Source of the DNA: Roseburia hominis
GTDB lineage: Bacteria; Bacillota; Clostridia; Lachnospirales; Lachnospiraceae
Direction: 5' to 3'
Assembly (NCBI GenBank): GCA_021771815.1
Contig: JAETOE010000008.1
Coordinates: 1 to 64,000, forward strand
DNA length: 64,000 nt
Shown here piece after piece: positions 7,007 through 29,963 of this stretch (position 1 is its first letter; the number at the start of each line of letters is the position of its first letter). The notes beneath the pieces were generated by a model. The model had not been told where the DNA came from and ran no database searches. It saw nothing but the letters and a program-made list of their open reading frames with translations. Both the position numbers and the translations under genes were made by a program.

Positions 7007-7051
7007 TTTTATGTAGAAACAGTGTTTATTACACAGAGAAGGGGAAAGCAC

Positions 7052-8194: not shown

Positions 8195-8221
8195 TGAAAG
8201 TTGATAGGAGAATACTGCCAG

Positions 8222-8257
8222 GAGCTGTTTGTGAATTGTTCATAAACAGCTCTTTTT
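8222..8257 (+). terminator. Rho-independent terminator after the amidase
   Basis: GAGCTGTTT (8222-8230) pairs with AAACAGCTC (8244-8252) and is followed by TTTTT. Confidence 0.85.
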
Positions 8258-8330: not shown

Positions 8331-8402
8331 AGAAGTAGTAATATCGGAAACTGTGTGACGCACAATTAAATATGGAACCTTCAGAGAAAGGCAGGTATGC
8401 AT

Positions 8403-10115
8403 ATGGGAACAGCAGACGGAAATGAAAGAGTTGTCATCACAATGGAGCAGTATCTTAAGCTGCCGCAGCAGACGCCGGACGATGATCTGCACGAAGAGAG
8501 AGCGGTTGTTCGCAGTCTGCACGAAGAGAGGGCAGCCGTGCACAGCCTGCGCGGGGAGCATGCGGCGGGAAGCAGCCGATGTATCGGAAGAGGCACAGGG
8601 GGAAGCAGCCTATATGAAGAAATAAGACAGCGGAACGGAATGTTACTTCAGCGGGCAAACGATGTCCGCACACCGTTACTTCTTGAAAATGCTAATCCTG
8701 CCGCTGCGGGGTGGGACAGCAGTTGTATGATCGACCGCTGTTTTTATGTGCGGGAAGGGGAGAAGGACGGAGGACTTCACGTTTGTTTGGGCGCTCGCGC
8801 GGATATGAAGGAGCCGTGCGACAGTCTACAAATACGGCTTTTGACATACGAAAAAGATACGAGAATGTTTCGGGAACTGCAGACAGCAGAGAAGGGGAAC
8901 ACAAGCCATCTTTGCTGTGACGTCGAGTGGGAGTTTTCGGGAAGTGAAGCGGAACTGGAAGCGTATATCCCTTATGCGGAATTTACATGGACAGACAAAG
9001 AGGGCAGGCATAATGCCAGCCAGGTGAGCCGGTTCCGGTATCGGTTGGACGAGTTGTTCGCAAAGTACGAGCAGGCATGGCCCAAAAAAGAGGACAAAGC
9101 GCAGTTGTTTGACCCGTCGAAACCACAGCCGGTTCCAGTATATGGAAGTGGGAAGACGCCACCGCCATTTTCGGAGAATGATCCGGACAGCTATGTTCTG
9201 GTCGCACTGTATCGGGCACCATGGGAACTGCGTGACTGTGACTATGTCTGCTATGTGGGGAAGGAAGCGGGACAGCCGCACATTCAAGTGCCGTTTCTGT
9301 GCAGGCTTACTGCGGCGAGGAACTGGAGATTCCGTGAATTTGAGGCGGAGCAGTCGTATTGTATTCTTACAGGCAAGGGTGGGGATTGCGGCGCGGCGCG
9401 TCTGCTTGCAGGCTTGAATGGCTATATGGAGAGCGGATTTGTGTGCAAGGTGTCGGGGGATAAGCAGACTGCGGTGGTGAGTCTCGCTACGCCGTGGAAG
9501 GATCACATATTGCAGCCGGGAAATATGAAGAAATTTTTCTATGATATGGATCTGCATCTGGAAATGGTGATGGAGAGTCGGTACAATCCGGCTGAAACGG
9601 AAATTGCGTTTCTGGATTTAAGCAGTAGGAACCGAAGCGCGGCATCCGCAGGCGGAGAAGAGGAAATTGTGCTGTATCCGGTCGCACTGATGTGGGGGTG
9701 CTTTGCGGAGGATACGCAGATTCGCATGGCGGACGGAAGCATGCGGCGGATTTCTGACATAAGGATCGGAGATGCGGTCATGCAGCCGAAAGACGGGCGT
9801 CCGGTGCGGGTGTGCAATATATGGAAGGGCACGGAGAAGGAACTGGTTGTGATTCGGACGAAGGAAGGAGAGTCCGTTCGGATGACGAGGGAGCATCCGC
9901 TTTGTCAGGAAGATGGATTCATCCGCGCGGGTGAGATAAAACCGGGGGATACGGTATATGGGGAAGCCGGCAGAAAACTGACGGTTGCGTCGGTGGAGAC
10001 GGTGCCATATGAAGGGCATGTCTACAACCTCGATCTGGAGCGCAGCGAGGGCGACGGCACACTTCTGGCAAATGGCATTGCAGCGGGAGACAACGGAATA
10101 CAGAACGGCAGATAA
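8403..10115 (+). CDS. Hint-domain protein, first gene of giant operon
   Basis: This protein has about 570 residues. I recognise only the C-terminal Hint (Hedgehog/intein) domain, about 433-560. It has the nucleophile Cys433 in CFAEDTQIRMADG, the block-B TREH motif (T495, H498), and a closing strand ending LLANGIAAGDN. These residues predict self-cleavage or ester/thioester chemistry at Cys433. Only about ten residues follow the domain, so there is no C-terminal toxin or extein to release. The N-terminal 430 residues are unknown and include a three-copy ten-residue repeat (28-57). There is no signal peptide. ATG 8403 is preferred over 8397 because AGG at 8393-8395 is then seven bases away. Confidence 0.7.
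   Translation: MGTADGNERVVITMEQYLKLPQQTPDDDLHEERAVVRSLHEERAAVHSLRGEHAAGSSRCIGRGTGGSSLYEEIRQRNGMLLQRANDVRTPLLLENANPAAAGWDSSCMIDRCFYVREGEKDGGLHVCLGARADMKEPCDSLQIRLLTYEKDTRMFRELQTAEKGNTSHLCCDVEWEFSGSEAELEAYIPYAEFTWTDKEGRHNASQVSRFRYRLDELFAKYEQAWPKKEDKAQLFDPSKPQPVPVYGSGKTPPPFSENDPDSYVLVALYRAPWELRDCDYVCYVGKEAGQPHIQVPFLCRLTAARNWRFREFEAEQSYCILTGKGGDCGAARLLAGLNGYMESGFVCKVSGDKQTAVVSLATPWKDHILQPGNMKKFFYDMDLHLEMVMESRYNPAETEIAFLDLSSRNRSAASAGGEEEIVLYPVALMWGCFAEDTQIRMADGSMRRISDIRIGDAVMQPKDGRPVRVCNIWKGTEKELVVIRTKEGESVRMTREHPLCQEDGFIRAGEIKPGDTVYGEAGRKLTVASVETVPYEGHVYNLDLERSEGDGTLLANGIAAGDNGIQNGR
8484..8573 (+). repeat. Three 30-bp in-frame direct repeats
   Basis: Units begin at 8484, 8514 and 8544 and encode variants of SLHEERAxVx. 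The first two are nearly identical and the third has diverged. They lie near the N-terminus of the Hint protein. Confidence 0.85.
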
Positions 10116-10133
10116 AATGCCAATGGGGGAAAT

Positions 10134-11498
10134 ATGCTTGATTCGATTGAGATTAGAGAGGTCAGCGTCACAAAGCAGGCGGATGGTTATGTAATTGCGG
10201 CGAGTTGGAAGGCGACCAGTGAAGGAACGCCGTACCGGGGACCGTATGAGTTGGTTTTAATGAACGGGGAGACTGCAGTTAGGAACTGGAATGTAGGAAA
10301 TAGTATGAGCTGTAAGCAGAAGGTGGACATCGAACTGCAGAAGGATATTTCCTACCGGGTCAAAATCGGGGGCAGTGAAGGGACAGTGTACAGTGAAAGT
10401 ATGGCGGTGCTGTTTTTCGGCTTTGAGACGGTCAGGGGGAATTTCGACGGCAGCGTGCTTTATCTGGCATGGGATTTCAGGGAAGATATTACGTTTGCAG
10501 GTGCATATGTCGTATTTGCGAGAGCTGTTTCGCCGGATGGGAGCGTGATTATTGGAAGGTACGGAGACAATTATCTGGATATTCCGATTCATATGGATGC
10601 GATGAAGGCGGGAGATGCCGGCACGGTGAAGCTGATTCCTTATATTGAGGAGCGCTCGAGGGGGCCGGAAATCAAACTGCATTTTCTCCCGTGGAAGGTG
10701 CGGCTGGACGGCGTTGCATCGGTGCGGGAAGCGGATGACGGGGTTCATGTAGAGATTTTACAGAGCCACGATTACGAGACGACCTGGAACGGCATCTTGC
10801 AGCCGGAGCTTTGTCTCTGCTATCAGGGGCAGGAATGGACATCGGCTTTTGCTACGGGAGCCGCCTCGGGGAGCAGTCTGACATTTATATTTTCCAAGAA
10901 GGACGTTGACGCAGAGCGGTTAAAGCGCGCGGAAGCGGCGCTCTATACGGGGAGCAGTGAAAAAATCGGAGATACGGTCGTGACGCTTTCGGGCAGGCGG
11001 GCGGACTGCACAGAGCGGATTGCGCTCGGGAAGACGGAAGCGGTCAGCGTTATGCCCGGTGCGGCGGGAACTAAGATCGCATGGGGTTATTGCGGCGCGG
11101 GAATGCCGTCGCATTATGAACTTGCGTTTTCAGACGGTGGAACACAGATCACGGCGGAGTGCAGTGCGGTACTTGCCGGGCGCAGGACGGGAACCGTGAG
11201 CATCCGTCCGTATTTCGGATTGAGAGCAGGGCTGCCGTCGTCCGCGGCATCGCTTCATCCGGCGGGGTATTATCTGTATCAGCAGGATGGAAAATGGCAT
11301 ATTTATCAGAGTCAGGGCGAGGAGAGTCCGCACACGCTGTCCTGCCATATCAGACAGGAAGTTTTTAACCGGAGACTTGCGGGAAGCGTTGAAGGAAACG
11401 GCATCACGCTTGCGCCGGAGGAGGGCGGCTATGTGCTTACGGTCACCAATCCGTCGGAGCGGAAAGGCGCAGTGCCGGAGAGATACAGGATATGGTAG
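10134..11498 (+). CDS. Unrecognised beta-rich protein, giant operon
   Basis: This 454-residue protein has no family I can name. Alternating-strand stretches such as YRGPYELVLMNGETAV, YRVKIGG and SVLYLAWDF recur and suggest two to four fibronectin-III-like or other beta-sandwich modules. A PSHYELAFSDGG block near residue 325 resembles the first one. It has no signal peptide, membrane segment or catalytic motif that I can see. It starts 18 bp after the Hint gene with GGGGGA as ribosome site, and its end overlaps the next start by 7 bp, so it is co-translated. A structural or adhesive role is only a guess. Confidence 0.65.
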   Translation: MLDSIEIREVSVTKQADGYVIAASWKATSEGTPYRGPYELVLMNGETAVRNWNVGNSMSCKQKVDIELQKDISYRVKIGGSEGTVYSESMAVLFFGFETVRGNFDGSVLYLAWDFREDITFAGAYVVFARAVSPDGSVIIGRYGDNYLDIPIHMDAMKAGDAGTVKLIPYIEERSRGPEIKLHFLPWKVRLDGVASVREADDGVHVEILQSHDYETTWNGILQPELCLCYQGQEWTSAFATGAASGSSLTFIFSKKDVDAERLKRAEAALYTGSSEKIGDTVVTLSGRRADCTERIALGKTEAVSVMPGAAGTKIAWGYCGAGMPSHYELAFSDGGTQITAECSAVLAGRRTGTVSIRPYFGLRAGLPSSAASLHPAGYYLYQQDGKWHIYQSQGEESPHTLSCHIRQEVFNRRLAGSVEGNGITLAPEEGGYVLTVTNPSERKGAVPERYRIW

Positions 11499-12313
11499 CG
11501 CAGATGGCGGATGTCGCCTATGAGGATTTGCTGCTTTGTGCCTGCGGCTATAGCGGGGAAGACCGCTGTACGGATTTAAAATGCGGGATGCGGCTGCTCG
11601 TGGAAGCGGAGGGTTACAAACCGTCCTATGGCGCGGACGTTTCGGCGGGAGCGGGACAGTATCTTCCGGGTTACTATATGGGGGCGACTTCCGTTTACCA
11701 GATGCATTCCTATGGCAGCGGGGAGGAGTGGAAGCTTGGATTTGACGCGTTCCTCGCGGGAATGAAGGAGGAGCATACGATGCAGCGGATAGGCGGTGTG
11801 CTCGAGCGTCAGAACGGGGAAGGAGGGCTTGCAGATCTGTTTCGGATCGGGGCGCGGAAGCCACTGTACCGCATTCATTATCCGGTTCGAATGCAGGACA
11901 GCCAGGAAGCGGGGACGGACTATGCGCCCGGAAATGTGTGTCTGATCGGCGCGGACACCTATGGACAGCTCGTGGAGGCAACGGCGAGCATGAACAACGA
12001 GCAGCAGGTAACGACGGCGGGAGTGACGTTATCCTATTTCCGGGGAAGAGCGGTGATGGTTCCGAAGATTCCCATTGTGGTCGACGGCGTCAGAGAATAT
12101 GTTTCGCTCGGAACGACATTTGAAAACCTGCTTGAGGAGGAAGGTTTTGACAGGGAACAGTCCGCAGGAGAAGTTAAGCTGCTGCGCAGAAGCTGTATGG
12201 ATAAAAGCGGGTTCCTTCCGGTCTATTTTCCGGAAAATGCGAATGATTCCGGTTGGCGGAAACTGCCGCTTCTGCCGGGTGATCGGATTTCGTTCGGACG
12301 GGCGCGCGTATGA
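11492..12313 (+). CDS. Unrecognised 273-residue protein, giant operon
   Basis: I cannot assign a family. The N-terminus is cysteine-containing (LLLCACGYSGEDRCTDLKCG). The C-terminal third has a segment (REYVSLGTTFENLLEEEGF, then LPLLPGDRISF) that resembles the LysM/SLBB-like pieces in the giant protein downstream, but only weakly. No signal or membrane helix is seen. It overlaps both neighbours (7 bp upstream, 4 bp ATGA downstream), a sign of tight translational coupling and fixed stoichiometry. Confidence 0.6.
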   Translation: MVAQMADVAYEDLLLCACGYSGEDRCTDLKCGMRLLVEAEGYKPSYGADVSAGAGQYLPGYYMGATSVYQMHSYGSGEEWKLGFDAFLAGMKEEHTMQRIGGVLERQNGEGGLADLFRIGARKPLYRIHYPVRMQDSQEAGTDYAPGNVCLIGADTYGQLVEATASMNNEQQVTTAGVTLSYFRGRAVMVPKIPIVVDGVREYVSLGTTFENLLEEEGFDREQSAGEVKLLRRSCMDKSGFLPVYFPENANDSGWRKLPLLPGDRISFGRARV

Positions 12314-15300
12314 GGGCGCGGGGCGAGAGGAAGGAGACGGCTGCACAATTTACGAGAATCCAGGCGGCGGGCGGTTCTACGTGGTATCAGTGTGGGAGAA
12401 CTGTTTTCGGTATCGCCGGACTGCGGCAGGAAGAGAGTCTGACGGCGGAGGAAACATGGCAGATCGAGGCGGGCAGTTATCTGTTTCTGGGAGAAAATCT
12501 GAAAGCGGAGGAGAGCGGGCAGTTTTTTGCCGACGCTATGCGGCTTATAAAATCCTGTGGGGGAAGGATCCTCTTCGGGTGGATCTGCAATCCGTCCGCT
12601 CCGCTCGGGCAGTGGCAGTACCAGCTTCTTTTGTGGGAGAGGGGCGGTGAAGATGCGCACAGCTTTTTGACAGGAAGGGAATTTGACTGGCAGAGGTATG
12701 CGCTCTTTCTGCCGGGCGGCAGCCGTTTGGTGCTTGAGGACGAGGCGGCGCTTCGTCTAAAAATGGGAGAAAAGCGCCACTGGCTTCGGACGCCGGGGCT
12801 TACACTCGGCGGGGAGGGCGAGCCGCGCTTATGGATTACCGGGGAGAATGCGGGGATCTGGGAGATTGATTTCGTGCTTCCTGAGCGGGAGGATGTATTT
12901 GCGCAGATCGACGCAGGCGTCCGGTACTACTCTATGTCGGAAGGACAGCCGTACAGTGCGACGGCAGCGCTGTTCTACCCGGAACAGGAAATCCGCCTCC
13001 GGGGACGATTGGATTTTGCGAAAGCGCCGGAGGAGGGGATGCGGTTCTTTTTTGATGAGAGCGCTTCTTTTGAGTTCCCCTGTGAGATTCCGACGCTTTA
13101 CGGGCGTAAGGTCTATGCGCGGATGCAGTTCCCGGCGGGTGGAGCGGCTGTAAAAAGCAGGGAGGAAGAACGTCCGGGACTCATTTTCGCAAGAGGAATC
13201 CGATGGTTTACCTCGGAGGCGGGAAAACCTGGCGCAGCGTGTGAATATTATTTGACCTACACAGGTAAATTCAAACTTCGAATGGAGGAAACGGACGCTG
13301 CAAACGACGACCGCATACTCTGCGGCAGAATGGGAACGGAGTATCTTGCGTGCGGCGACGACGGCTTTCTGACGCTGCGCTTTTATCCGGGCAATCCGGC
13401 ATATTGCGGTATGGCGGGTGGGGAAAGCGGTCTGTGCGGCATGGCAGGTGGGGAAAGCGGCTCGTGCGGCATGGCGGATGGGGAAAGCGGCCTGGACGGT
13501 CCGGCAGAAGGGAAGACCGGGCTGACCGGACTGGCGACGACGGCGTGGATTTCCTTTGGCGCAGAGGAACAGACGGTGGATTATTATTCTACGGCAGCGC
13601 AGACGGCGCTTTATGCGGTGCAGGAAAAGACTTCGGAGTTTCTCGATTATCTGGAACTGCCAGTGGCGCAGCTTCAGGGAGAGCGCGCCGTTCCGTTCCT
13701 TCCGGTAAAGCGGTTGGCAGAGAAGACGGTAAATGAAGAACTGCTTTTGGGGATGGAACTCTCGGGAGTATTGCCGACACGTGCAAAAATTCTTTTGAAT
13801 CGGGAAAATGCCATTGCAGGGAGCAGGAGCGGGGAACAGACCGCTGCGACGCCGCAGGGATTTCTGGTGGGAGTTACTGGAAATGCGTGGAACTGGATCA
13901 AAATCGCGTCGAATGCGGAGGGAGGATCGCCGGACTCTGTATTTGCAGGGATATCAGAAGAACTGAGAATGAAATTCCATGACAGCCGTCTATTTCTTGC
14001 GATGGCGGATGCAGCGGCGATTGGGGCACAACTACAGCAGTGGAAGCTCGATTTTGCAGTGGGAGACTGGCGGTTTCTTGTGGATGAAGAGCACTTTCGC
14101 AGCGGCAGGGAAGACCAGAGTAATACGGCAATTATTTTCAAGTATGCAAAAGACAAATCCATCGACGAGCTGATGCAGGAGACGGATTTTGAGGGAGAGG
14201 CGGTTGCCGGAAATATCAGACAGATTTACCAGAGCGCGGCGGCGCATGTATACGACAGAGATGGAAATGTGCTTGCCGATTACCGGAATTTTTATGAGAT
14301 GACACACGACCGGGCATTTTCAGGAGTTCTTGTTTTGAACTGTCCGCTTTCGGTAAGTCAGATGCCGGAGGAGTTAAAGCTCCTGCTTGCAGGACTGAAG
14401 GAGGATGCGCTCTATGCGCATCACATGGGAGTCCATGCAAACGATCTTACGGTGAAGGACGGCGTTCCCGTCATGAAGCGGTCGAGTTATTTCGGTCTGG
14501 TGGATTATCAGGATAACGGGGTTCTTGTGAATGAGAATACGGACAGCAAGGATTATGATTTCCTCACAAAGCGTGTTCTGTTGGAAATCCGTAATTCAGT
14601 GATCGTAAAGTTTGCGGCGGAGGCGGAGGTGCTGATCAATCGGTTGTTTGACGCCAGGGCGGAGGCGGTCACAGGGGAAGCGGGAAATTGTCTTGTGCTG
14701 GACGGAAGCTATCAGAACTGCGGCGGTGTGGGGCAGTATGTGTTTGCGCTGCGGCAAAATACAGTCTTTGCGCTGCGGGGGAGTATGCTTGAAAATGTGG
14801 AGATCACCGCAGTGAGGATGAAAGCCGGGGAAACGGATGGGATGCTCACCGGAAGCTTTGGGCTGACCGGAAAGCTGCGCTTTTGGAGGAATGCAGCCTG
14901 CGATATTCTGGCGTATGGAAGCTGCCCCGATACCGGGGAGGACGGGTATCTGGAGTTTGATAATCTTGCGATTGACATGTCGATCGAGCAGGCGGGGACG
15001 GGAGCAAAGCATTTCACAGTGCGGTATGAGACATTGACGCTGGATGAGACGCAGAGTATTTTGCGGCGCGGCTCACTGCCGACATGCCTGCCCGCGCATC
15101 CGCAGGCGCTGATGCGTTACAATTTATCCGAAGGAGCGCCGAAAGCGTTCGGCTACCGCAGCATCACCTGTCCCGTGGAGCAGGGGGAGATAAAGTCGCA
15201 GTGGTACGGGCTTTCTTTTGTGATACCGCTCGGATCGCTTGGGGGAAATTCGGCGGTGGCGGCGTTGGAATTAAAGCTTTTGTGCGCATGGGGCATGTCG

Positions 15301-15660
15301 GAGGAAGGGAAAGAAGAACCGCCGGTGTTTGTCGGCATTTCGCTGCCCGGGCTCGGGGCGGACGGGATTACGCTGTCGCTTCAGGGAATTTTAAAGCTGG
15401 ATTTTAAGTCGGTAGAGCTTCTGGTCTATCATACGGAGGAGAAAACGGATTACCAGCTTTGCTTTCGGAATTTTACACTGAGCGCGCTCGGCATGTCGTT
15501 TCCGCCTGGGAAAAATAATATCTATCTGTTCGGAGAGAACGGCAGCAGGCTGGGGTGGTATGCGGCGTATCAGAAGGAGGAGAAGGATGGCGACGACAAG
15601 CGTAAAAGTGACGATTCTCGCAGTCGGACAGGGGATGGGCAATCTGATCGAGGTGTATGA
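12310..15660 (+). CDS. Unrecognised 1,116-residue beta-rich protein, giant operon
   Basis: No known domain is evident. The sequence is rich in alternating hydrophobic strands, especially in the last 500 residues, and its C-terminal region (EIKSQWYGLSFVIPLGSL, GITLSLQGILKLDFKS) resembles the repeated strands of the 3,176-residue protein, so the two may share a fold. Residues 366-395 are a three-copy CGMAGGESGL repeat. It has no signal peptide. The final 25 residues are highly charged and are encoded within the 74-bp overlap with the next gene, so they may be an extension gained after loss of an earlier stop. The start couples to the previous stop (ATGA). Confidence 0.65.
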   Translation: MRARGERKETAAQFTRIQAAGGSTWYQCGRTVFGIAGLRQEESLTAEETWQIEAGSYLFLGENLKAEESGQFFADAMRLIKSCGGRILFGWICNPSAPLGQWQYQLLLWERGGEDAHSFLTGREFDWQRYALFLPGGSRLVLEDEAALRLKMGEKRHWLRTPGLTLGGEGEPRLWITGENAGIWEIDFVLPEREDVFAQIDAGVRYYSMSEGQPYSATAALFYPEQEIRLRGRLDFAKAPEEGMRFFFDESASFEFPCEIPTLYGRKVYARMQFPAGGAAVKSREEERPGLIFARGIRWFTSEAGKPGAACEYYLTYTGKFKLRMEETDAANDDRILCGRMGTEYLACGDDGFLTLRFYPGNPAYCGMAGGESGLCGMAGGESGSCGMADGESGLDGPAEGKTGLTGLATTAWISFGAEEQTVDYYSTAAQTALYAVQEKTSEFLDYLELPVAQLQGERAVPFLPVKRLAEKTVNEELLLGMELSGVLPTRAKILLNRENAIAGSRSGEQTAATPQGFLVGVTGNAWNWIKIASNAEGGSPDSVFAGISEELRMKFHDSRLFLAMADAAAIGAQLQQWKLDFAVGDWRFLVDEEHFRSGREDQSNTAIIFKYAKDKSIDELMQETDFEGEAVAGNIRQIYQSAAAHVYDRDGNVLADYRNFYEMTHDRAFSGVLVLNCPLSVSQMPEELKLLLAGLKEDALYAHHMGVHANDLTVKDGVPVMKRSSYFGLVDYQDNGVLVNENTDSKDYDFLTKRVLLEIRNSVIVKFAAEAEVLINRLFDARAEAVTGEAGNCLVLDGSYQNCGGVGQYVFALRQNTVFALRGSMLENVEITAVRMKAGETDGMLTGSFGLTGKLRFWRNAACDILAYGSCPDTGEDGYLEFDNLAIDMSIEQAGTGAKHFTVRYETLTLDETQSILRRGSLPTCLPAHPQALMRYNLSEGAPKAFGYRSITCPVEQGEIKSQWYGLSFVIPLGSLGGNSAVAALELKLLCAWGMSEEGKEEPPVFVGISLPGLGADGITLSLQGILKLDFKSVELLVYHTEEKTDYQLCFRNFTLSALGMSFPPGKNNIYLFGENGSRLGWYAAYQKEEKDGDDKRKSDDSRSRTGDGQSDRGV
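13405..13494 (+). repeat. Three 30-bp in-frame direct repeats (CGMAGGESGL)
   Basis: Units begin at 13405, 13435 and 13465. They differ at only a few bases each, which indicates recent expansion. A degenerate continuation (DGPAEGKTGL) follows. Confidence 0.9.
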
Positions 15661-16750
15661 GGGGACGAACATGACGCAGTTGATTCTTGTGGACTGCGGC
15701 GGGAGTGGTGTAACGGAAACTCATGTGAAAGACTGTATCTGGAAAATTCATGCGGCAATGCAAAAGCGTGCAAAGGCGCTGGGAAAAACAGGTTTTTACA
15801 GGCATATCGATCTGCTTGTTTTGTCTCACCAGGATAGGGATCATCATTCAATTCTATACGAAATTCTGAAGAAGCAGACCAAGGCGTTTATCTCAATAGG
15901 GGAATTCTGGACATTTGATGAAAACTATTGTACCTTGAGTGCGGATTATAAGCAGTGCAGAGATAAGATAGTCGAGATTGCCGGGAAACAATGTATTTTA
16001 CCAGATGGGAGTGCTTATGAGAATGGAGCGCTTGCATGGCATTTATATGCGTCGGACTATGCATGTCTCACTTATCTGTATACAAATGCCCGGGGAGGTG
16101 ACAGCAGGAATACGGTCAGTGCTGTAATTCAATTAGAACTCCGTTTTCCGGGAAAGTTCGTTTATCGCTTTCTGTTTCCGGGAGACCCGACGAAGCAGAC
16201 TATGGAGCAGATTTCATCTGTGAAGCTTCCGGGAGATTATGAGATTGATTATATGTCGGCGCCGCATCACGGTTCGATTGTCACATGTGACAGCAGTTCG
16301 CTGACGGCATTTCTGGAAAAAATGAAGGTGCGGGAGGTGGTAGTCAGCGCTGGGGAGGGCAACGGTTATGGTCATCCGCATAAGACCTTTATGGAAATTG
16401 CAGAAAATAAAATCCGCTGTACTATTGCTGCGCATTCCTGCTATTACAACACGACAGACAAAGCGGAAAACGGACATTACGGTATAAAAAGTACGGCAAA
16501 GCGTCTGTATACATCATTTGTACCGGATCCGACGGCCAGAGGCACAGCGGTACGGGGAGAATATTATCATTATGTCTATACTATGAGCAGCAGCGGAATG
16601 AAGGAGAGCCTGGAGGGGATTGAGAGGCATTCCGGCAGTCCCTACACGCTCACAGAACGATCTGTGCAGGAAAACAGCAGATCATGGCGTGCCGTGGCAA
16701 TGCCGGGCATGGCACGCCATGGTCTGCCGGACATGGCGGAAAGAAGGTAG
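15587..16750 (+). CDS. ComEC-like metallo-beta-lactamase-fold hydrolase, giant operon
   Basis: This 387-residue cytoplasmic-looking protein has a metallo-beta-lactamase fold of the ComEC C-terminal type. The motifs are VGQGMGN near the start, SHQDRDHH (H81, D83, D85, H86), FPGDPTKQ, the third-ligand region SAPHHGS, and GHPH. The family hydrolyses phosphodiester or related bonds in nucleic acids or nucleotides; the substrate here is unknown. ATG 15587 is chosen because AAGGAGG (15574-15580) precedes it, although this places the first 74 bp inside the previous gene. The C-terminal 50 residues are low in predicted structure and include a DNA palindrome. It is followed within 3 bp by the giant gene. 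Confidence 0.82.
   Translation: MATTSVKVTILAVGQGMGNLIEVYEGTNMTQLILVDCGGSGVTETHVKDCIWKIHAAMQKRAKALGKTGFYRHIDLLVLSHQDRDHHSILYEILKKQTKAFISIGEFWTFDENYCTLSADYKQCRDKIVEIAGKQCILPDGSAYENGALAWHLYASDYACLTYLYTNARGGDSRNTVSAVIQLELRFPGKFVYRFLFPGDPTKQTMEQISSVKLPGDYEIDYMSAPHHGSIVTCDSSSLTAFLEKMKVREVVVSAGEGNGYGHPHKTFMEIAENKIRCTIAAHSCYYNTTDKAENGHYGIKSTAKRLYTSFVPDPTARGTAVRGEYYHYVYTMSSSGMKESLEGIERHSGSPYTLTERSVQENSRSWRAVAMPGMARHGLPDMAERR
16684..16720 (+). repeat. 10-bp perfect inverted repeat inside the hydrolase gene
   Basis: ATGGCGTGCC (16684-16693) pairs with GGCACGCCAT (16711-16720), with a 17-bp loop, 30 bp before the stop of the hydrolase gene. It could form an mRNA hairpin that sets translation of the giant gene downstream. 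Confidence 0.6.
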
Positions 16751-16753
16751 CAT

Positions 16754-22700: not shown

Positions 22701-25700
22701 TGCAGACCGCTATGGAGAAGAAAAAACGAAATGAGATATGGAACGCATTAAAGAAATCCACGTACCAGATACAGGCGGCGGGAACGTCGCTGTACCTTGA
22801 GAGTACGCTGCTTGCAAAGAAAATAAGTCTGCCCTGTGAAACGATACTCGAATTGTATCGGCAGATACAGAACTGGCTGTTGTGGGTTGACACTCTAAAC
22901 CCTGCTTTGTGTACCTCACAGACACTCGGGGACGCCGTGACGGATTACACGCTGACGCCGGAAGAACTGTTAGACGGAAATCTGGATGTGAAGCTTTCGC
23001 AGCTATTCGGAGAACAGGAGCTTTTTGTTCCGGTCATAAAGACGTTCTACAGCGGCGCTTCACTTGCAGTGCTTATGCCGGAGGTGGGATGGGAAAGAAA
23101 TAAAGAGGCTGCTCTGCATGCGGGAATCGATGTAATCATAAGCGAGGAGGCGGGGAGAGACTACACCGTTTCGGCTGACGAGCGCACCTTTTCGCTTGCG
23201 GCTTCGGCAATCGGTTGTCAGGTGTCCTCGCTGGTGGAAGACAACCGGGATAAGAAGGGAATCCTTTTAGAACATTATGAATTTACTTTTCAGGGCTATG
23301 AGATGGAGGTCGGAAGCGAGAACGGCGTCACTGCGTCGTTGGATGATGTGTGTGCGGCATTTTTGCAGTTCTTTGAGGTAAACGTGACTCCGATGGAGCT
23401 TGTCGCGGAGGAAACGGACGGTATTCTCGCAGAGGGTGCGGTGCTTTCCTATTGGCGGCTTACGGCTGCATGTGGTGAGACGCTTTCCCGGAATCATCTG
23501 GGCTGTACGGCGGAGAGGCTGTGGAACTATAACCGGGAGACGAGAGATCTGTTCGAAAACGGCACGGCGGTCTGGTGCAGTACGAAAACCATTGCAGCGG
23601 AGGATGCCGGGAGTCTGCGCGAAATGTGTGAGGTGTACGGAATTACAACAAGGCAGTTCTATGATGCCAATAAGGAAATAAAACTACAAGACTCGTCGAC
23701 ACTTGTGCTGACGTCCTGCATTGCGTTCCCCGAGACGGCTTATACCTCATCTTTTACGTTGGAAGAAAACGGCGGTGCGGGGTATCGTATGGCATGGGTG
23801 TGCAGTCATTATCACTGCGAAGAAGGACTGTGGTTTTATCGCAGGATGCAGCACATTATAATAGAAGGAACACAGATTCATGCGCCGGAGGGGACGGTTA
23901 CGGTCAGCCGGTTCGATACCATAGAGAGCGTAGGCAGAAAGCTTAAAGCGCTTGGCGCGGACAGTGAAGCGCTGCTTATGGAAGCGCAGATCGTGCGCGA
24001 CGGAATCACGCTGCCGCTTCTCCCGCAGGGGAAGCGTTACCGTGAAAATATTGACACGTCATGGATTAGAAAAAGAACGGATATTTTACTGAAACTGGAT
24101 GTGGAGCTTCATCTGTATCGTGCCTCTGACAGAAAGGAGAATCCGCCGGAGGAGATTTATCACGCGTGGACGCCGGTTCTTCCGGGGACCGGAGACGGAC
24201 AGGCGTCCATGGAAGAATTTGTACAGGGACTTGAGGAGACGATGCCGTTTGCCTATGTAGTGCAGGGGGAGACGGAACAGAAGACGCAGGACGGTCTGTA
24301 CCTGTGGATCGCGAAAGGCGACGGAGAAAAAGGAATTACAAATATCGCATTTGCGCCGTCCTGTTATTATGACAAAGAGATAAAGACTCCGGCGGTCTAT
24401 GCGCTGGCGCCGATCACAACAAATCCGGTAAATCGGGAAAATGTAGCGATCGCGCCGCTTACGGAGGACGGGGCATTAGGCGAGGAGATACCGCAAAGCT
24501 TTGCGGGAATTGATCCGGAACGCTGGGCGGTCATCTTTTTACAGGATATTGAGGGGATGTTTGCACCACAGATGGTGGAGAAGACCTTCCGGCATGACTG
24601 CGAAGCGCTTTTAGAGCGGCTGCTTGAGGAAAAGGAACTGCTTGCGGAGAAGATCCCCGAGCGTTTGTGCCATGTCTTACAGCCGTTAGACGATGTGGGC
24701 GAGGCGGGAATGGACGAGGCGAAGAAGGTTGTTGTGGAGCAGCTGCGCGCTTCGCTGTCCCGTGCTTACGGGAAAAATGTATTGCTGCAATATCCGGGGA
24801 AGGTGGAAACAGGGGCGGTGGCAGACAAGCGCTATCGTCTGGCGGGCAGCATTTCTATGGACGGATTTACGGAGCCGGTACATTTAAAGGCCGGGAAAGT
24901 GGAGTTGATGAATGAGGACGCGTATCTGCATGTATTTGTAGAAGCGGAAAGGCTTAGAAACGCATCCTTCCCGCTAAAAGCGGCGGAGTATCAGATCAGG
25001 GAGTTAGAGCGCATCTGGCAGCAGGAGGGCGAGATTTACGAGCAATCGGATTGGTTTTCTCTGTTAAGACCGATAGACCCCAAAAGCGGTGGGGACAATG
25101 TGAAGATCGATCTTTCCTGCGGGCTTAAGATTCCGGTCCCGCTGCGGTTCTATCCGATGCAGCCGGTGCTGAAGAACCAGGTGATCACCACAAAACAGCC
25201 GGAGGAGATCAAGGACATTTCGGAATTGCTGCGCTATTATTATCATGTGACTTTAAACCACGAGATGGCGGGACAGGATATGATATACGTGACGGTCGTA
25301 TTTAATGAGAAGCCTGCCTTCTGCCTGAAAAATGCGCGAAAGGATGTATTTGACTGTCTGGCGCAGTATATCGGGGTCAGAGAAGAACTGCTGGGATTAT
25401 TGCATGAGGGTGGGGATAAGTTTTCGAAGGCGTATGAGACGTTCGTAGAACTTGTGCATGAAACAGCGGAGCACTGGGAGGATTTCGAGGAGAAGAATGC
25501 AGTAATGAGATTGGAGGAGAAGACATACGACTGCCATTTTCGGACATGGTATACGGAGAACGAACTACAGATTGAATTATTTACAAGAGAGGAACAGATT
25601 CCGGTGATTCATTATGTCCTGCCGGACGGCACAGAGCAGGAGATGGAGGCGGAGAGAACGGCGGAAGGCGGGCGTTATCGGATGTCCGGCGTAAGCGACG

Positions 25701-26284
25701 AGGAGCTTTCCGCTACAATTACACTCCGTCTGACCCTGGAGGAATTAGACATTTTTGCATATCAGAGTGTGTATGCAAAAAGCTATGTCACCAGAAATGA
25801 AGACATATCCGATTCCCTGCATCCGGTTAATGAAAGATTTTTATATCGCACGGATGAGACGGCATTTGCGCACCCGCTTCAGGCGCTCGTAAGCTGTGAA
25901 AAGGATGTGCGGGTCGTCGTTCCGGCAGAGTATTTAAGCGGCAGCGGCTTTGAGGAGCGGGCGCTTCGGTATCTGTTTGAGGAAGTGTTCGAAATGGGAC
26001 GGCGGGACGCGCAGATTTCCTGTCAGATTTCCTATGGCTATCAGATGAGCCTTGCGGCAGGCGCCAATGTGGAACTGCCGATCTGCCTACAGCCCAGAAC
26101 TGTATATACCGATGCGTGGCTCGTACATCTGGCGGAGCATATCAGGCGTTGGAGAGAGCGGCACGATCCGCCCGTACGCGGCAGATATCTGCGGATAGAA
26201 ATCACTGTTTTTTCGACGGAACTTAAAGATGAGGGAATACCTGTGGTAAAGCTTGGCGGAATCCGGGTCGATGAGGTAAAATAG
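16754..26284 (+). CDS. Giant 3,176-residue protein with beta-rich half and LysM-like segments
   Basis: The first roughly 1,020 residues are long runs of alternating hydrophobic strands ending in an extended block (IGVGLSLGIGRSFDFSVV to about FSFHFSMHMDFSIG). This resembles DUF6603-type or groove-forming lipid-transfer-like beta folds, which is an impression and not a match I can prove. Residues 1300-1420 hold two LysM-like segments (DTWESAAAALGMPVAALRYGN and a following one), and 2140-2420 hold about five more degenerate ones, for example ITTRQFYDANKEIKLQDSS. The C-terminal 700 residues are unknown. It has no signal peptide or membrane helix, so it is cytoplasmic or exported by an unseen route. 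It begins three bases after the hydrolase stop. One intact 9.5-kb frame implies active selection. Confidence 0.75.
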   Translation: MAEPYLVQMVKEGREQSGRLTGYTLAELFGEAVTVAAEGSRLTENARVIGGILFTEVVIEKIPARAGGYRAAGKLVLPQGWEYYDSYVEGISDFSGNAVCTQTTQGWRVDFELTAPLAKRSSFLLSLKGHWQGQGGETQSSEAYAELVYQVRLDAVGELKLHHRLLRGNAWTYYADFEPPLRPGSVAGFIGSLVGIQDITNIVKIPEGMPGLDFLAISGLRFMLSPARTLRGIEILLTVGEAWKPSVPYFKAKELGISLYFSIPAGGVERVTCSGGVFGTFLMQITSDFRLRLDLWGYIPELTIEGELLVWQDKKETVLLGDVLSSYGMPQADIGKLTVAGARYIASIPGRSFDLEFFIDSREMLSFSILGLTIAITEISGQISYDPAALALMLFGEIQIGRTNPFTLGLTFDYDCEEESGWHFKAELIAGEASIAAVLLELFGLAALREDPVFDLKLTDFMAEFYSNGRGPFTVRAALEQPWSTRLLGVNLVLFGSVDLTKAVTEEMTGTLMAGFKLNAFQIRVFYELVKETRFRFQIWYGDAYLEARYEKRNEHELLILGLKGMTLYGLVNTFVHMVNPNADFKLSAPWDILDRIRLDDFSLEFDMQERTVSMLYTAELNLLGLVEIRQIGIRYSRKETAKVEFVLVGSVLEQEYTSEDPMTWDAIDDNPPDIGGTDAAIITLDYLGMGQHFGTEELLAVKNITEAVKALKGAITPIGAGERPVLSYAESVNWLFGVDMTYRGMLRLQLALNDPSLYGILITVKNGEDSAFSQLAGLSLQLLYRKITDDIGMFSAELTVPDRFKVLDFGALRITLGKFYLELYTNGNFYLDLGFPSRQDFSSSFVVEAGYYTGRGGFYFGILNQETCTQVPAIVNGRFDPVLAIGVGLSLGIGRSFDFSVVKGAVSLEFFAIFEGIFALYTPSDASQKKDFYYAAKAVAGIYGRLFLSVDFVVISVSANAEIMAYVSVALEAYQPILFAVDLDLKVGASIKILFIKVSFSFHFSMHMDFSIGEAQKTPWKLADRQERRRRTGGYAPYRMRALVGSTAQKETGELRREMRYSGEKVDIEVRILPLYTAKQPSLEPCAAFLLLVGQEAGFAEIIKIAEEWVAGHLGETVSLAALEQLSDRLRGETGEFVSYFKERTRLVLAPVPTERADDAEEDGVFFPAVPGLIFRWLTYGTEGEIIGDETVSFADGPMVDEAYMEMLKEYFARLNPAPQTGISMNSDAGTEAQGSVLGRYGTDERAALAEVLLEDYLAVILQAVTKEAQEHIRAVHLNTAGKTLRELSESFRKVHVPLRKMHGDTWESAAAALGMPVAALRYGNRMRGEIAETDDGAEQWFSVGVTPHSILLDNPAWKFASETITVDGTEYETAGQNVEQLMRRNGISLDALVEAIQDERAVLTEDVIVVRNAPVLEREEVCGILHSDETTKQAAGMVSRFFLQGLRLPCPSADFAWQRNASFFKSKENWAGLYEIMGQQKKLLHEEGASDDFLRHRLTVTAAAGYESWIEIGENFELTISNEEIDSRAPSALFTPVFKQPLQEIAPYVLEKRQHPFEEYRLYLGEDTRKSILIFTKEFMRIADGHFSDYTWNVDSLLTGFGRTMGQNIAGQEREGNLGLLLALTLQRTSEELPVYEITVTGKGSSRALDAMRKEDMACLELLYEPSAVEGMEDGLYRLPLTEEKTRLVMTDLSRETKSSPNALFNLDKEVVYIADMSEPNAFLTLLWQLSVTNCGGYYLCLEDAEILKPSLFSSSGEGKLWLLATAREAEAGCNCVIHDREVGADEYAWLSVKEEKSKEHPDEYAVQSLLNPGSAGFSAALAQPKNPEEDKQDAVRNLYSIINYRIHGEGYEDCETGMPLLPKEPGDDATVWEYSQSVPLDRFLLSGSENPYDNVGMAAQIELEFRDVLGNAVCETNDTDSCNSGADDGGSRPWGNAWNYSLEITPEYNDALLAIHQSGAVSVGYMVREGQLVLAVDPSLQTAMEKKKRNEIWNALKKSTYQIQAAGTSLYLESTLLAKKISLPCETILELYRQIQNWLLWVDTLNPALCTSQTLGDAVTDYTLTPEELLDGNLDVKLSQLFGEQELFVPVIKTFYSGASLAVLMPEVGWERNKEAALHAGIDVIISEEAGRDYTVSADERTFSLAASAIGCQVSSLVEDNRDKKGILLEHYEFTFQGYEMEVGSENGVTASLDDVCAAFLQFFEVNVTPMELVAEETDGILAEGAVLSYWRLTAACGETLSRNHLGCTAERLWNYNRETRDLFENGTAVWCSTKTIAAEDAGSLREMCEVYGITTRQFYDANKEIKLQDSSTLVLTSCIAFPETAYTSSFTLEENGGAGYRMAWVCSHYHCEEGLWFYRRMQHIIIEGTQIHAPEGTVTVSRFDTIESVGRKLKALGADSEALLMEAQIVRDGITLPLLPQGKRYRENIDTSWIRKRTDILLKLDVELHLYRASDRKENPPEEIYHAWTPVLPGTGDGQASMEEFVQGLEETMPFAYVVQGETEQKTQDGLYLWIAKGDGEKGITNIAFAPSCYYDKEIKTPAVYALAPITTNPVNRENVAIAPLTEDGALGEEIPQSFAGIDPERWAVIFLQDIEGMFAPQMVEKTFRHDCEALLERLLEEKELLAEKIPERLCHVLQPLDDVGEAGMDEAKKVVVEQLRASLSRAYGKNVLLQYPGKVETGAVADKRYRLAGSISMDGFTEPVHLKAGKVELMNEDAYLHVFVEAERLRNASFPLKAAEYQIRELERIWQQEGEIYEQSDWFSLLRPIDPKSGGDNVKIDLSCGLKIPVPLRFYPMQPVLKNQVITTKQPEEIKDISELLRYYYHVTLNHEMAGQDMIYVTVVFNEKPAFCLKNARKDVFDCLAQYIGVREELLGLLHEGGDKFSKAYETFVELVHETAEHWEDFEEKNAVMRLEEKTYDCHFRTWYTENELQIELFTREEQIPVIHYVLPDGTEQEMEAERTAEGGRYRMSGVSDEELSATITLRLTLEELDIFAYQSVYAKSYVTRNEDISDSLHPVNERFLYRTDETAFAHPLQALVSCEKDVRVVVPAEYLSGSGFEERALRYLFEEVFEMGRRDAQISCQISYGYQMSLAAGANVELPICLQPRTVYTDAWLVHLAEHIRRWRERHDPPVRGRYLRIEITVFSTELKDEGIPVVKLGGIRVDEVK

Positions 26285-26321
26285 AAGAAGAGGTATACAA
26301 AGGAATAAGGAGGAACAGTAC

Positions 26322-29300
26322 ATGTCCCGCATCAAAAATTTTTGGGGGTACATAAAGCAGGCGGCGCAAAAATTGCTGTTCAAATCAGGAACGCCGCTTG
26401 CCCCACTGCATCGGAATATTCCCTACATCAATAAACCGATTACGGACACGGACGCGGACGAGATCGGTATGGATGTGTATGTCGACTATCTGGAGAGCGC
26501 GATTGAGCAGGGAGCGTCGATGATCTCGGTCGTATCGAGGTTCGGCACGGGAAAGTCCAGTCTGATCGAATTGCTGAAGAAAAAGTACAGCGGTTATGAA
26601 AAGAAAGGGAATATACGGACAAAGCGTCTGTATTGTCAGGTGAATCTTTGGAGCCACCTCGGAAAAATCAGACAGCATGAAGACGGGCATAACGGAACGC
26701 CAGAGCTTCACAGAACCTTTTTGTATCAGATGATCTCGGCGCTTCATCCCGGGAAAAGCAGCTATTTCAGCAAGCGGACCAGCCGGAATTTCGGAATGCT
26801 TCGCATCAGCACGGAGAACCCGCTATGGGGCGCATGGATCAGGATTGCGGTATTGTTTTTCCTTGGAGCGCTGCTTGGGCAGCAATTTTCGGGGGAACTT
26901 ACAGGCAGCGGGATGATCGGCAAGGAACTTTTAAATCAACTGATTATACTGGGATATGCAGCCTGCGCGATTATCATTGTGCTTGTGATCCTGCGCACGG
27001 AAATCATTTTTTCATCGAAGAATTCCGAGGGCAACAGGCAGATCGAAGAAAATGAACTGATCGAGCTGTACCGGGAGCATATTCTCGTACCGCGGCGGTG
27101 GTACCGAAAACTGTGGGCGAGGATCGCCGGCGTAAAGCAGATCGTTGTGATTATTGAAGATCTCGACCGGACGGACGACGGCGACAGCGTGTATGAGTTC
27201 TTGAAGGAACTGCGGAAGTATTATGTGCCCTATGAGCAGTCAGAGAAAAATTTTATGAATCAGGTCGTTTTTGTTGTGAATATTATGCCGGAGGATCTGC
27301 TGCAAGACAAATGTAAAAACGCGCCGGAGGAACAGGGCTATGTGTATGATAAGCTGTTCGATTATTCCCTCAACTTAAACCGGGTCAATATTGACAATTT
27401 CGATGCGGTTTTAGAAGCGCTCCTCACGGAAAAGCGCGCGGAACTTGAGGAGATGGGACTTGTGGTCTCCGACAGTGACAATATGCACCGTATGCCCGGA
27501 ATGCAGTGGATCGTGCACGGCAGGGAACTGAGTCTGCGGCAGGTAAAAGCGAGGCTTAACGATGCGGTTCTGCTCTACGAGAGCCTTCGGACAAAGTTCG
27601 GGGCGGAATATCCCGAGTTCATCAAGTGCGCGGTGGTGGCGTATTTGAGAAATACCTATTCGAAGGATTTTTATAAGCTTACCGACCGGGAACTTGAGGA
27701 AATGCTCGACTGGTACGCAAGAGGGCTCGGGGATGAAAAGGTATTTCTGGAGGAGTTTGAAAGTACCGGGAAAAGCCAGCGGTTCTTAAAGGAACTGTAC
27801 GAAATGATCGTAAGCCACCTGATCGATGGAAACTATCGGATTTATTTCTTCAATTATCCGCGTGACAGCCATCTGTATACCGTGCAGGAGACGAAGGTGC
27901 GCAACCTGATCGTCTATGACGAGAAGGTGGATGCGGATATGGAAGCGCAGATTGGAGAGGTGTGGGCGAAGAATCCGAAGGTGATAACGGACGCGCTGGA
28001 TACCGTGCAGGAGTTGGCGAAAGCGATGCCGGACGCCGTCACTTATTCGGAAATTATCTGGAACGCGGCGATCGACCGTGATTATGCGGCGGTGTACGAA
28101 TTTCTGGACGGGTGTTTTTCCAATGTAAAGGAATGGGATAAAGCGCGGCTGCAGATGATCGACCGCGTGTGCCGTTATAAGGAAGGACCGGAGCTTTTAG
28201 CTGAGGCGCTCAGAGAGAATGAGCCCAACCGCGTGTCGGAAATCCGCGATTATCTTCTGGCGCATCACAGGGAGCAGATGGAGACGTTTGTCGAGTTGTT
28301 CCGGGACGGAGAGCCGATGACGAAAGAAGAATTTGAATCGACGGATGAGATTCCGCTTGAAACAGTGCTTAAGATGCTTCCGACCGAGTTAGAGACACTT
28401 CCGGAGGAGGTGGTATTGGGAATCTGTGACAGGGTGGAGCACGGGAATGATCGGAGCGCGCTCCTGGCGGCGGAGCATTTTTATGAAAAAATGGCGGAGG
28501 CGTACCCCATCGAGGATATCGCAGAGCAGTTGACCGTTTATATGCACTTGAGAAACGCCCTGCTGCCTGCGCTGGAGGACGACATTTATGAGGGAGTGAC
28601 GGATGAGAGGATTTCTTCCGATATTTATTACGAGCTGCTTAATCAGATGCCGACCGGGGAAATTGGGGAGGCGCAGTTGGAGCGAATCCATGCGCTGAAC
28701 GAACCGGGACATATTACGCCCGCGATTTGTGAGAGGTTTAAGGAGGCGCGCCGGATAGGAGACTATCTGCAGAATCAGATATTGCTGGATGAAAATGCGC
28801 TGGATTTGCCGTTGGATGAGGCGGGCGCCGCCCTGCGGAGCGGGGAGGAGAACATATGGAAGCGTCAGCCGCAGTTGTTCCTGCGGATTCGTGCATGGAT
28901 GTGCGGGGAGTACAAGGATACCGTAGCCGCGTATTCAGACTTATTCTGGCTGCCTTATCCGATTATCACGGCGAAGGAGCTTCGGAATATCAGCGGAATC
29001 GAGGTTGCCTTAAAGCTTTATGACAGGGAGCAGATGGCGGAGGACGAAGAGGGAGCGTTTGTTTCATACTGCAACCGGCAGTACCGGCCGAGCCGGGAGG
29101 CATTTTCCATCTTTAAATTCATCGCCGGGATGGATGAGACGGTAATCGAGGACATATTCTATGCGCTGGATATGAAGAAGGTAAAATTTGCCGGGATGTC
29201 GAAGGAGCGGAAGAAGGAGATTGTAAAGGAATTGCAGATTCCGTTGAATCTGACCGATGCGGAATCGATCGTGCGTTTTATGGATTTCACCGGATGTCTT

Positions 29301-29963
29301 ATGCCGGAGCTGGAGCGGGAGATCGCCGAGGAATTGAAGGAGGGCGATAATGAAAAACTGAGCCGGGCCTACGTCGCTGCGATCAATAAAATGGGAAAGG
29401 TCACTGCGGAGACGATTAAAAATATTCTTGCGATGCCAAGAATGCATTGCTATAGTGATGTGATCAATGAGGAGCTTTTTTCAAAAAAGCATTATGTGGC
29501 TTATATTTCTTCAAAGACACAGAAAGCGAAAGCCTTTGTAGTTGAGTATGAGCGCATGGATGTCTTGTGGCAGACCTATCTTGCGATTATGAAATCGGCG
29601 GGCGACTATAAGTATACACGTCCGCATATGTACCGGAATAAGGAGTTCCTCAAAATGATCCAGGACAGAGGGGACTACAAGGGCTTCCCGGAGGAGAGCC
29701 GCATGGCGATGGCGGGCATTCTGCAGGATGAAAAGAATCTGGAGGAGGCGCTGACCTACGGCGAGGACTTTGTCATCCGCTATTACAGCGGCATCGCGGG
29801 CTTTCAGAGCAAGCAGGCGGCGGATAAGTTTGTGAAAATCATGAAGAAATATCCGCAGTATGCGCAGAATAAGCAGATATACGACGCGGTGCACGGCAAA
29901 CTCATCGACGGGAACCTCAAACGCGCCTACACGAATCTGTATAAGCGGGCAAACGGCCATTAA
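26322..29963 (+). CDS. YobI/KAP-like membrane P-loop NTPase, end of giant operon
   Basis: This 1,213-residue protein has a Walker A motif (FGTGKSS, K78), two membrane helices between about 168 and 228, and a Walker B stretch VVIIEDLDRT followed by the sensor-like VVFVVNIM. This order matches the KAP/YobI-like STAND-type NTPases, and the length is close to what I recall for Bacillus YobI. About 750 residues of helical repeats follow. These proteins are predicted to be membrane-anchored switch ATPases, some in conflict or defence contexts. It has a strong ribosome site (AAGGAGG at 26308-26314) 37 bp after the giant gene and so is expressed from the same operon. Confidence 0.78.
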   Translation: MSRIKNFWGYIKQAAQKLLFKSGTPLAPLHRNIPYINKPITDTDADEIGMDVYVDYLESAIEQGASMISVVSRFGTGKSSLIELLKKKYSGYEKKGNIRTKRLYCQVNLWSHLGKIRQHEDGHNGTPELHRTFLYQMISALHPGKSSYFSKRTSRNFGMLRISTENPLWGAWIRIAVLFFLGALLGQQFSGELTGSGMIGKELLNQLIILGYAACAIIIVLVILRTEIIFSSKNSEGNRQIEENELIELYREHILVPRRWYRKLWARIAGVKQIVVIIEDLDRTDDGDSVYEFLKELRKYYVPYEQSEKNFMNQVVFVVNIMPEDLLQDKCKNAPEEQGYVYDKLFDYSLNLNRVNIDNFDAVLEALLTEKRAELEEMGLVVSDSDNMHRMPGMQWIVHGRELSLRQVKARLNDAVLLYESLRTKFGAEYPEFIKCAVVAYLRNTYSKDFYKLTDRELEEMLDWYARGLGDEKVFLEEFESTGKSQRFLKELYEMIVSHLIDGNYRIYFFNYPRDSHLYTVQETKVRNLIVYDEKVDADMEAQIGEVWAKNPKVITDALDTVQELAKAMPDAVTYSEIIWNAAIDRDYAAVYEFLDGCFSNVKEWDKARLQMIDRVCRYKEGPELLAEALRENEPNRVSEIRDYLLAHHREQMETFVELFRDGEPMTKEEFESTDEIPLETVLKMLPTELETLPEEVVLGICDRVEHGNDRSALLAAEHFYEKMAEAYPIEDIAEQLTVYMHLRNALLPALEDDIYEGVTDERISSDIYYELLNQMPTGEIGEAQLERIHALNEPGHITPAICERFKEARRIGDYLQNQILLDENALDLPLDEAGAALRSGEENIWKRQPQLFLRIRAWMCGEYKDTVAAYSDLFWLPYPIITAKELRNISGIEVALKLYDREQMAEDEEGAFVSYCNRQYRPSREAFSIFKFIAGMDETVIEDIFYALDMKKVKFAGMSKERKKEIVKELQIPLNLTDAESIVRFMDFTGCLMPELEREIAEELKEGDNEKLSRAYVAAINKMGKVTAETIKNILAMPRMHCYSDVINEELFSKKHYVAYISSKTQKAKAFVVEYERMDVLWQTYLAIMKSAGDYKYTRPHMYRNKEFLKMIQDRGDYKGFPEESRMAMAGILQDEKNLEEALTYGEDFVIRYYSGIAGFQSKQAADKFVKIMKKYPQYAQNKQIYDAVHGKLIDGNLKRAYTNLYKRANGH

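Follow-up and report, generated by a model that had tools for sequence, protein, structure and literature searches.

Polymorphic toxin systems with HINT processing are described as combining Hint autoprocessing with the exchange of nuclease domains (PMC3482391). Both features recur in a gene set that lies in a 64,000-nucleotide stretch of Roseburia hominis DNA (positions 1 to 64,000 of contig JAETOE010000008.1, assembly GCA_021771815.1; contig 51 of a 3.74-Mb genome), called the window below. Its conserved genes, A, BC, D, E, and F, encode a Hint protein, a protein that is split into B and C in the window, a beta-rich scaffold, a ComEC-like metallo-beta-lactamase (MBL), and a giant protein, and the gene between D and F is exchanged among relatives. 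Unlike these polymorphic toxins, in which Hint stands just before the C-terminal toxin domain, the module encodes Hint in a protein of its own, A, and what it exchanges is an entire gene, flanked by two conserved giants.

Other described systems share single traits with the module. Tc toxins and the Rhs proteins of type VI secretion systems are beta-cages that hold a toxin, whereas the cargo of the module is encoded by a separate gene, LysM arrays are present, and no immunity gene was recognized; neither D nor F of the window matched a YD/Rhs family. E is nearest to the MBL domain of ComEC (TIGR00361, 4.5e-9, under the model cut-off) and has the same kind of metal motifs, but it lacks the membrane channel of ComEC, and the enzyme in its place may be a DNase I-like EEP or an HNH protein. 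LysM proteins without a leader occur in extracellular contractile injection systems and phage tails, and the slot MBL matches the tail family phrog_7043 (6e-8). In contrast to contractile systems, no sheath, tube, or baseplate match was found in the seven window proteins with Pfam and PHROGs, in line with an earlier first-pass annotation of the window, made from the sequence alone, which had noted the absence of a phage-tail baseplate gene; no sheath, tube, or baseplate gene is named in the annotated Tistrella cluster either. The MBL defence systems (Lamassu LmuA, AVAST Avs1a, 6A-MBL, and DRT MBL) have an enzyme of a kind related to E, but none of the scanned PADLOC models is related to D or F, and neither A to D, F, and G nor 11 D members gave a PADLOC match to the partner genes of AVAST type 1 or Lamassu. 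The first-pass annotation had also held that the combination matches no known system, and we likewise found no described system that fits. A literature search of titles and abstract openings, with most subscription papers and preprints outside its reach and an unseen description therefore possible, did not find the module described.

A gene core shared by ten phyla

On sequence grounds, the core A (Hint)-BC-D-E-F is a conserved system, in which D and F form a fixed pair. In 85 of the 90 loci compared, the two genes share a strand and D precedes F; in the other five the contig is no longer than 16,071 bases. The lineages of the relatives belong to Bacillota, Pseudomonadota, Bacteroidota, Actinomycetota, Cyanobacteriota, Acidobacteriota, Chloroflexota, Verrucomicrobiota, Fibrobacterota, and Vulcanimicrobiota. 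The first-pass annotation had taken seven genes, including an NTPase gene G after F, as one unit, for which conserved synteny across Clostridia would be the support. Such synteny was found for the core, across ten phyla and not as a clostridial speciality; the operon is real, but the nearest relative has a single gene in place of B and C, and G, the only gene found separately, lies outside the conserved set.

F residues 1 to 1582 were searched against 250 genomes of the family and gave relatives in three further genomes. F residues 1 to 1049, searched against plasmid records, gave eight records from seven genera (Embleya, Tistrella, Nostoc, Azospirillum with two records, Paenibacillus, Mycetohabitans, and Lysinibacillus), of which seven were retrieved. 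A species-genome collection scanned with the F-core alignment, using a single peptide pattern, gave 212 relatives, and the best 80 were kept. With duplicates removed, 79 of these best 80, one IMG/VR contig, three other genomes, six plasmids, and the window made up the 90 loci. Each extends about 10 kb to either side of the F core, with A often cut off and little visible 3' of F. Open reading frames (ORFs) were called mechanically, and antisense ORFs hid genes in some locus comparisons; the slot analysis used unfiltered ORFs.

By its F core, the nearest relative of the window is a Roseburia metagenome-assembled genome, L021, with 85% identity. The annotated gene order in Tistrella (Hint, three hypothetical proteins, a LysM giant, and a hypothetical protein) is that of the same cluster, and in Mycetohabitans a separate gene for the N-terminal part of F lies between D and F. 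F is also split into two adjacent genes in L009, L012, L040, L041, L044, L047, and L102.

F was found in 4 of 60 genomes of the genus, 4 of 250 of the family, 4 of 199 of Pseudomonas, and 11 of 98 of Chryseobacterium, the centre genome being counted each time; in a draw from the phylum, the only carrier among 398 genomes was that of the window itself. D follows F: it occurs in the same 4 of 60 genomes of the genus and in 5 of 199 Pseudomonas genomes, the same four and G888. The D match in the latter (G888:C2:471851-474691), which has no F match, looks like a decayed or divergent copy.

An exchangeable gene between D and F

The position between D and F, here called the slot, takes unrelated nuclease-type folds, as judged from profiles and motifs, and the catalytic motifs are kept. 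Its content in the 85 loci is an MBL in 32, a DNase I-like EEP in 28, an HNH protein in one, another ORF in 11, and no ORF in 13, so that a nuclease-type enzyme fills it in 61 of 85. This contradicts the statement of the first-pass annotation that no cargo accompanies the genes. The MBLs were recognized by profile in 30 loci, in one to three tandem copies, and in two more (Embleya and L044) were hidden by a longer ORF; the other ORFs are those of nine cyanobacterial loci with small ORFs, L079, and Mycetohabitans. Five of the 13 loci with an empty slot have a nuclease-type gene elsewhere in the cluster, namely an EEP-motif ORF upstream of D in L051 (Pfam EEP 0.0067, below cut-off), L053, L060, and L064, and an MBL ORF upstream of A, cut by the locus edge, in L022. 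A recognized nuclease-type gene is thus present in the cluster in 66 of 85 loci.

Among the MBL slot ORFs, HxDxDH is present in 35 of 37, as it is in E of the window, and the second metal motif in 31 of 37. All 28 EEP slot ORFs have the GDxN, SDH, and N motifs, and 20 of the 28 fit the E motif pattern. The metal motifs of window E are SHQDRDHH, GDP, APHHGS, and GHPH; its nearest solved chains in the PDB are ComEC (E values of 0.002 and 0.003), and its 396 residues contain no transmembrane-like segment. The slot gene is closely spaced in the 59 loci measured, with a D-to-enzyme gap of at most 100 bp in 57 and an enzyme-to-F gap of at most 100 bp in 54. An outlier is the MBL-like ORF of L075 (6400-7572), with about 500 bp on either side, no HxDxDH, and a start resembling a Sec-like leader. 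Leader-like starts were also seen on the EEP of L051, L060, and L064.

Two observations concern the gene before D. In Paenibacillus (L012:12465-13445) it encodes a Nal1-type trypsin-like protease (PF25819, 1.1e-7). Further loci without a slot gene (G015, G179, Azospirillum, Mycetohabitans, and L092) have a small two-domain protein of 230 to 285 residues at this position.

A tree of 78 F cores, made by a quick method after 12 near-copies had been dropped, has the phyla intermixed. On it, the MBL label changes seven times (six forced by supported branches), the EEP label seven times (three forced), and all slot states together 12 times with rows without D omitted; these counts are inflated by about two, Embleya and L044 being labelled as other in spite of an HxDxDH ORF. 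The labels are clustered on the tree far more than in shuffles. Because the labels change repeatedly on the F tree, slot exchange is recurrent. The module is, as read from these sequences, horizontally spread and crosses phyla. A phage origin is not favoured: F residues 1 to 1049 gave no tblastn match in 50,697 phage records. The D pattern had no match in viral contigs, and the D model had none with an E value of 0.001 or less against viral models, with TMq at most 0.09 among the 50 matches listed. One F relative, L102, is in IMG/VR, with a resolvase-like gene nearby, by eye.

Proteins of the module and layout of the window

D and F gave no significant match in the searched family libraries or among PDB sequences, and B, C, D, and F none above Pfam or NCBIfam cut-offs. 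The most conserved part of F is at residues ~520 to 1035, and residues 682 to 1035 were modelled as a porin-like amphipathic beta-sheet. The model has amphipathic strands and a rhythm of strands and short helices. That rhythm prompted a comparison with bridge-like lipid-transfer proteins of the repeating-beta-groove type (RBG/AsmA); none is among the 50 matches listed, which is an absence from that list and not an exclusion. DUF6603, a giant family of similar appearance, is not in the Pfam matches of F, and the word is absent from the literature searched. The F core is unrelated to D, with a profile comparison probability of 0.1%.

The first-pass annotation had seen a LysM-like part, which is weak in the window and clear in relatives. 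Window F has two weak LysM-like repeats in its C-terminal half (best profile i-E values of 0.012 and 0.029), and many relatives have LysM arrays C-terminal to the porin-like part. Of 17 C-terminal parts of F, 10 match PF01476 (LysM). An iterated profile, lenient in that it was trained on the same set with a loose threshold, detects LysM-like repeats in 74 of the 90 F proteins, with as many as 26 in a single protein.

Some giants have features of their own. The F C-terminus in L052 is a hydrophobic stretch followed by RRRRR, like a membrane anchor. Residues ~370 to 402 of D (window 13417-13515) form a low-confidence loop with near-repeats of GMAGGESG; near the same position the Nostoc D has a long insert that looks acyl carrier protein-like by eye, and 1 of 11 D members matches TIGR02813. 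The D proteins of Pseudomonas and Chitinophaga (L033, L025, and relatives) have a basic C-terminal tail with GRRTPPV, perhaps a docking or DNA-binding tag.

The Hint domain of A keeps the catalytic Cys and TxxH and has no C-terminal His-Asn. Nearly every member of the Hint alignment has retained Cys and TxxH (the Cys of L065 is just outside the aligned piece). In 10 aligned members the His-Asn of splicing inteins is absent at that place, most reading ANGIxxGD or similar, and Hint is at or near the C-terminus of A, with only a short tail beyond. By Hint chemistry, the Hint domain of A should thus cleave rather than splice. A Hint profile search of 50 genomes gave matches with E values of 1e-4 or less in 36 and of 2e-20 or less in 23. 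The strong match is inside the locus or at most 4 kb upstream in 20 of these 23; the contigs of L040, L041, and L044 were unmatched. A Hint ORF was read in all 12 loci fetched around Hint matches. Of the loci with an EEP in the slot, L048 and L063 have a linked Hint, and in Chryseobacterium L085 the Hint matches are far from the module. Given this uneven linkage, Hint is a part of sub-clades, and D to F are the core. Leader-like starts were seen by eye on A of four Pseudomonas loci and one Rhodanobacter locus.

B and C lie in different frames in the window and correspond to a single 760-residue ORF in L021, where B aligns to residues 1 to 453 and C to 489 to 757. BC is therefore split in the window, either by a real event or by an assembly error. 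In the compared set, 52 ORFs are related to C, and the Tistrella BC protein has an fn3-like Pfam match below cut-off (0.0012).

The seven plus-strand genes of the window were confirmed at the place given by the first-pass annotation, with ORFs filling 8397-29963 (Table 1). Its assignments of Hint (PF05203, 2.5e-10), a ComEC-type MBL, and a YobI-type ATPase (PF20693, 1.4e-9) were borne out.

Table 1. Genes of the operon and the preceding hairpin in the window
Feature	Position	Strand	Description	Spacing to next gene
Hairpin	8220..8254	+	Terminator-like, 16 pairs and a T run; ends the upstream unit	
A	8397..10115	+	Hint protein, 572 aa; Hint domain at residues 431-572 (9687-10112)	18 bp gap
B	10134..11498	+	N-terminal part of the BC protein, 454 aa	7 bp overlap
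C	11492..12313	+	C-terminal domain of the BC protein, conserved part, 273 aa	4 bp overlap
D	12310..15660	+	Beta-rich scaffold, 1116 aa; core gene	74 bp overlap (from ATG 15587)
E	ATG 15587 (ORF from 15560) to 16750	+	ComEC-like metallo-beta-lactamase, 396 aa; swappable slot	3 bp gap
F	16754..26284	+	Giant, 3176 aa; core gene	37 bp gap
G	26322..29963	+	YobI-like P-loop NTPase, 1213 aa	

G may be cotranscribed with the operon, as a GGAGG motif precedes its ATG and it starts 37 bp after F; this would fit the original proposal that all seven genes, NTPase included, are one system. The loci compared speak against that proposal. G has no relative among their ORFs, most of them reaching a few kb past F; L021 has an unrelated ORF 3' of F, TPR/kinase-like by eye; and the only other relative of G in the 250 family genomes (G087, C31:16074-19369, in pieces) is in a genome with no F match, while G015, G157, and G179 have an F match and no G match. 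A same-strand ORF follows F within 300 bp in 36 of 90 loci, and blastp links among such ORFs are, among the matches listed, mostly between second halves of F. With no G found beside any other F, the seven-gene system was rejected as highly improbable, and G is outside the conserved module as far as gene neighbourhoods tell.

Upstream of the operon we noted, by eye, a TIR-like protein (FLSHSTKNKELVENF, window 4892-5653); a Phd/YefM-like antitoxin (6653-7006) whose C-terminal extension is odd and for which the listed ORFs show no evident toxin; and, just 5' of the hairpin, an N-acetylmuramoyl-L-alanine amidase-like lipoprotein with an SH3-like part (7022-8194). The stretch of the hairpin has 3 terminator-like sites versus 2.8 expected from shuffles, and only the stem length stands out. 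An Rfam scan of the window gave no match.

Possible function of the module

Since unrelated folds with nuclease members share one fixed position, the slot would supply nucleic-acid cleavage, and D and F would most simply hold and place the enzyme; this is the strongest suggestion that the data make. The likely site of action is the envelope or the outside, to judge from the LysM arrays, from the amphipathic core of F, and from the leaders that partner proteins have in some lineages. We tentatively propose that the core A-BC-D-E-F is a giant beta-rich complex, exported or wall bound, that carries a swappable nuclease to DNA. The architecture is established by sequence; export, delivery, and target are what we infer from it. 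D would hold or mask the nuclease, the LysM repeats would keep the complex on glycan of its own or the target wall, the porin-like sheet of F would enter the membrane or line a path across it, Hint cleavage would mature or attach A, and the nuclease would then degrade the DNA of a competitor. Such a toxin-like machine is our first choice, held with some reserve, before an intracellular defence, a surface nuclease scaffold, and a lipid machine. A more specific form, which we regard as rather doubtful, is a new non-contractile delivery machine of monoderms and diderms: a leaderless giant, docked on glycan by its LysM arrays, would form a porin-like beta conduit through the target membrane and pass on the nuclease held by D; Hint cleavage would serve as the trigger or the lock, and MBL, EEP, or HNH would be exchanged while the machine stays constant.

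Several results weigh against the toxin-like machine. The main one is the lack of a recognized immunity gene: none was seen between the slot gene and F, the only interval searched for immunity families. A crude scan found a Sec-like leader in none of 85 D and in one F of 90, a weak one, and by eye no leader is present on A in the window or in most of the other lineages read. The F model covers residues 1 to 1082 only, has a pTM of 0.45, and matches porins with a high root-mean-square deviation, and residues 1036 to 3176 of window F have no Pfam match at an E value of 0.01 or less, LysM included. MBL and EEP folds also include non-nucleases, the HNH protein comes from L046 only (Pfam HNH 8.1e-4, just under cut-off), and no nuclease-type gene was recognized in 19 of 85 loci, where the slot enzyme is therefore either not always needed or unrecognized.

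The leaderless D and F would suit an intracellular anti-phage or anti-plasmid system, in which they form a cytoplasmic sensor or cage that frees the slot nuclease on invading DNA. E resembles defence MBLs (PADLOC LmuA, 6.4e-14, and RTasMBL, 2.3e-8; NCBIfam 6A-MBL, 7.7e-9, and Avs1a, 1.7e-4, all below NCBIfam cut-offs), and the module is patchy, crosses phyla, and is on plasmids in eight records. We consider this unlikely, as LysM arrays and the leaders that some lineages have on A or EEP suggest a place outside the cytoplasm, the 11 D members and window F have no PADLOC match, and an NTPase sensor is not a conserved part of the module. A surface or extracellular scaffold, with LysM on the cell's own wall and a nuclease that breaks down free DNA as a source of phosphate or remodels the DNA of biofilms with no delivery into other cells, would account for nuclease-type slot enzymes, LysM, and leaders on some partners and would need no immunity gene; it leaves unexplained the conserved porin-like sheet of F, the two giants (1,100 and 2,100 to 4,700 residues), and Hint, and we judge it improbable to a similar degree. 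More improbable still is a lipid or glycan machine, in which F would handle lipids as a groove or sheet and the slot would hold phosphodiesterases or phospholipases instead of nucleases. With Foldseek, the F model matches apolipoprotein B-100 best (E value 3.2e-4, TM 0.10), the F strands are amphipathic, and the MBL and EEP superfamilies include lipid-acting enzymes, but the HNH of one locus is a nuclease fold, and E is nearest to ComEC.

A conserved module of about 18 kb from A to F, present in ten phyla and built on two giant families unnamed in the searched libraries, marks a large gap in what is known of bacteria. The gene set is apparently undescribed and suggests a new kind of nuclease-carrying machine. 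The swappable slot offers a direct handle on it, since it suggests nucleic acid as the substrate and the remainder as the carrier, and the module occurs in named isolates of Pseudomonas, Chitinophaga, and Chryseobacterium, so that its function can be probed by deletion. If the proposal is true, a porin-like sheet in a leaderless giant, in monoderms too, would represent a new route by which an enzyme is taken to the envelope or through it.

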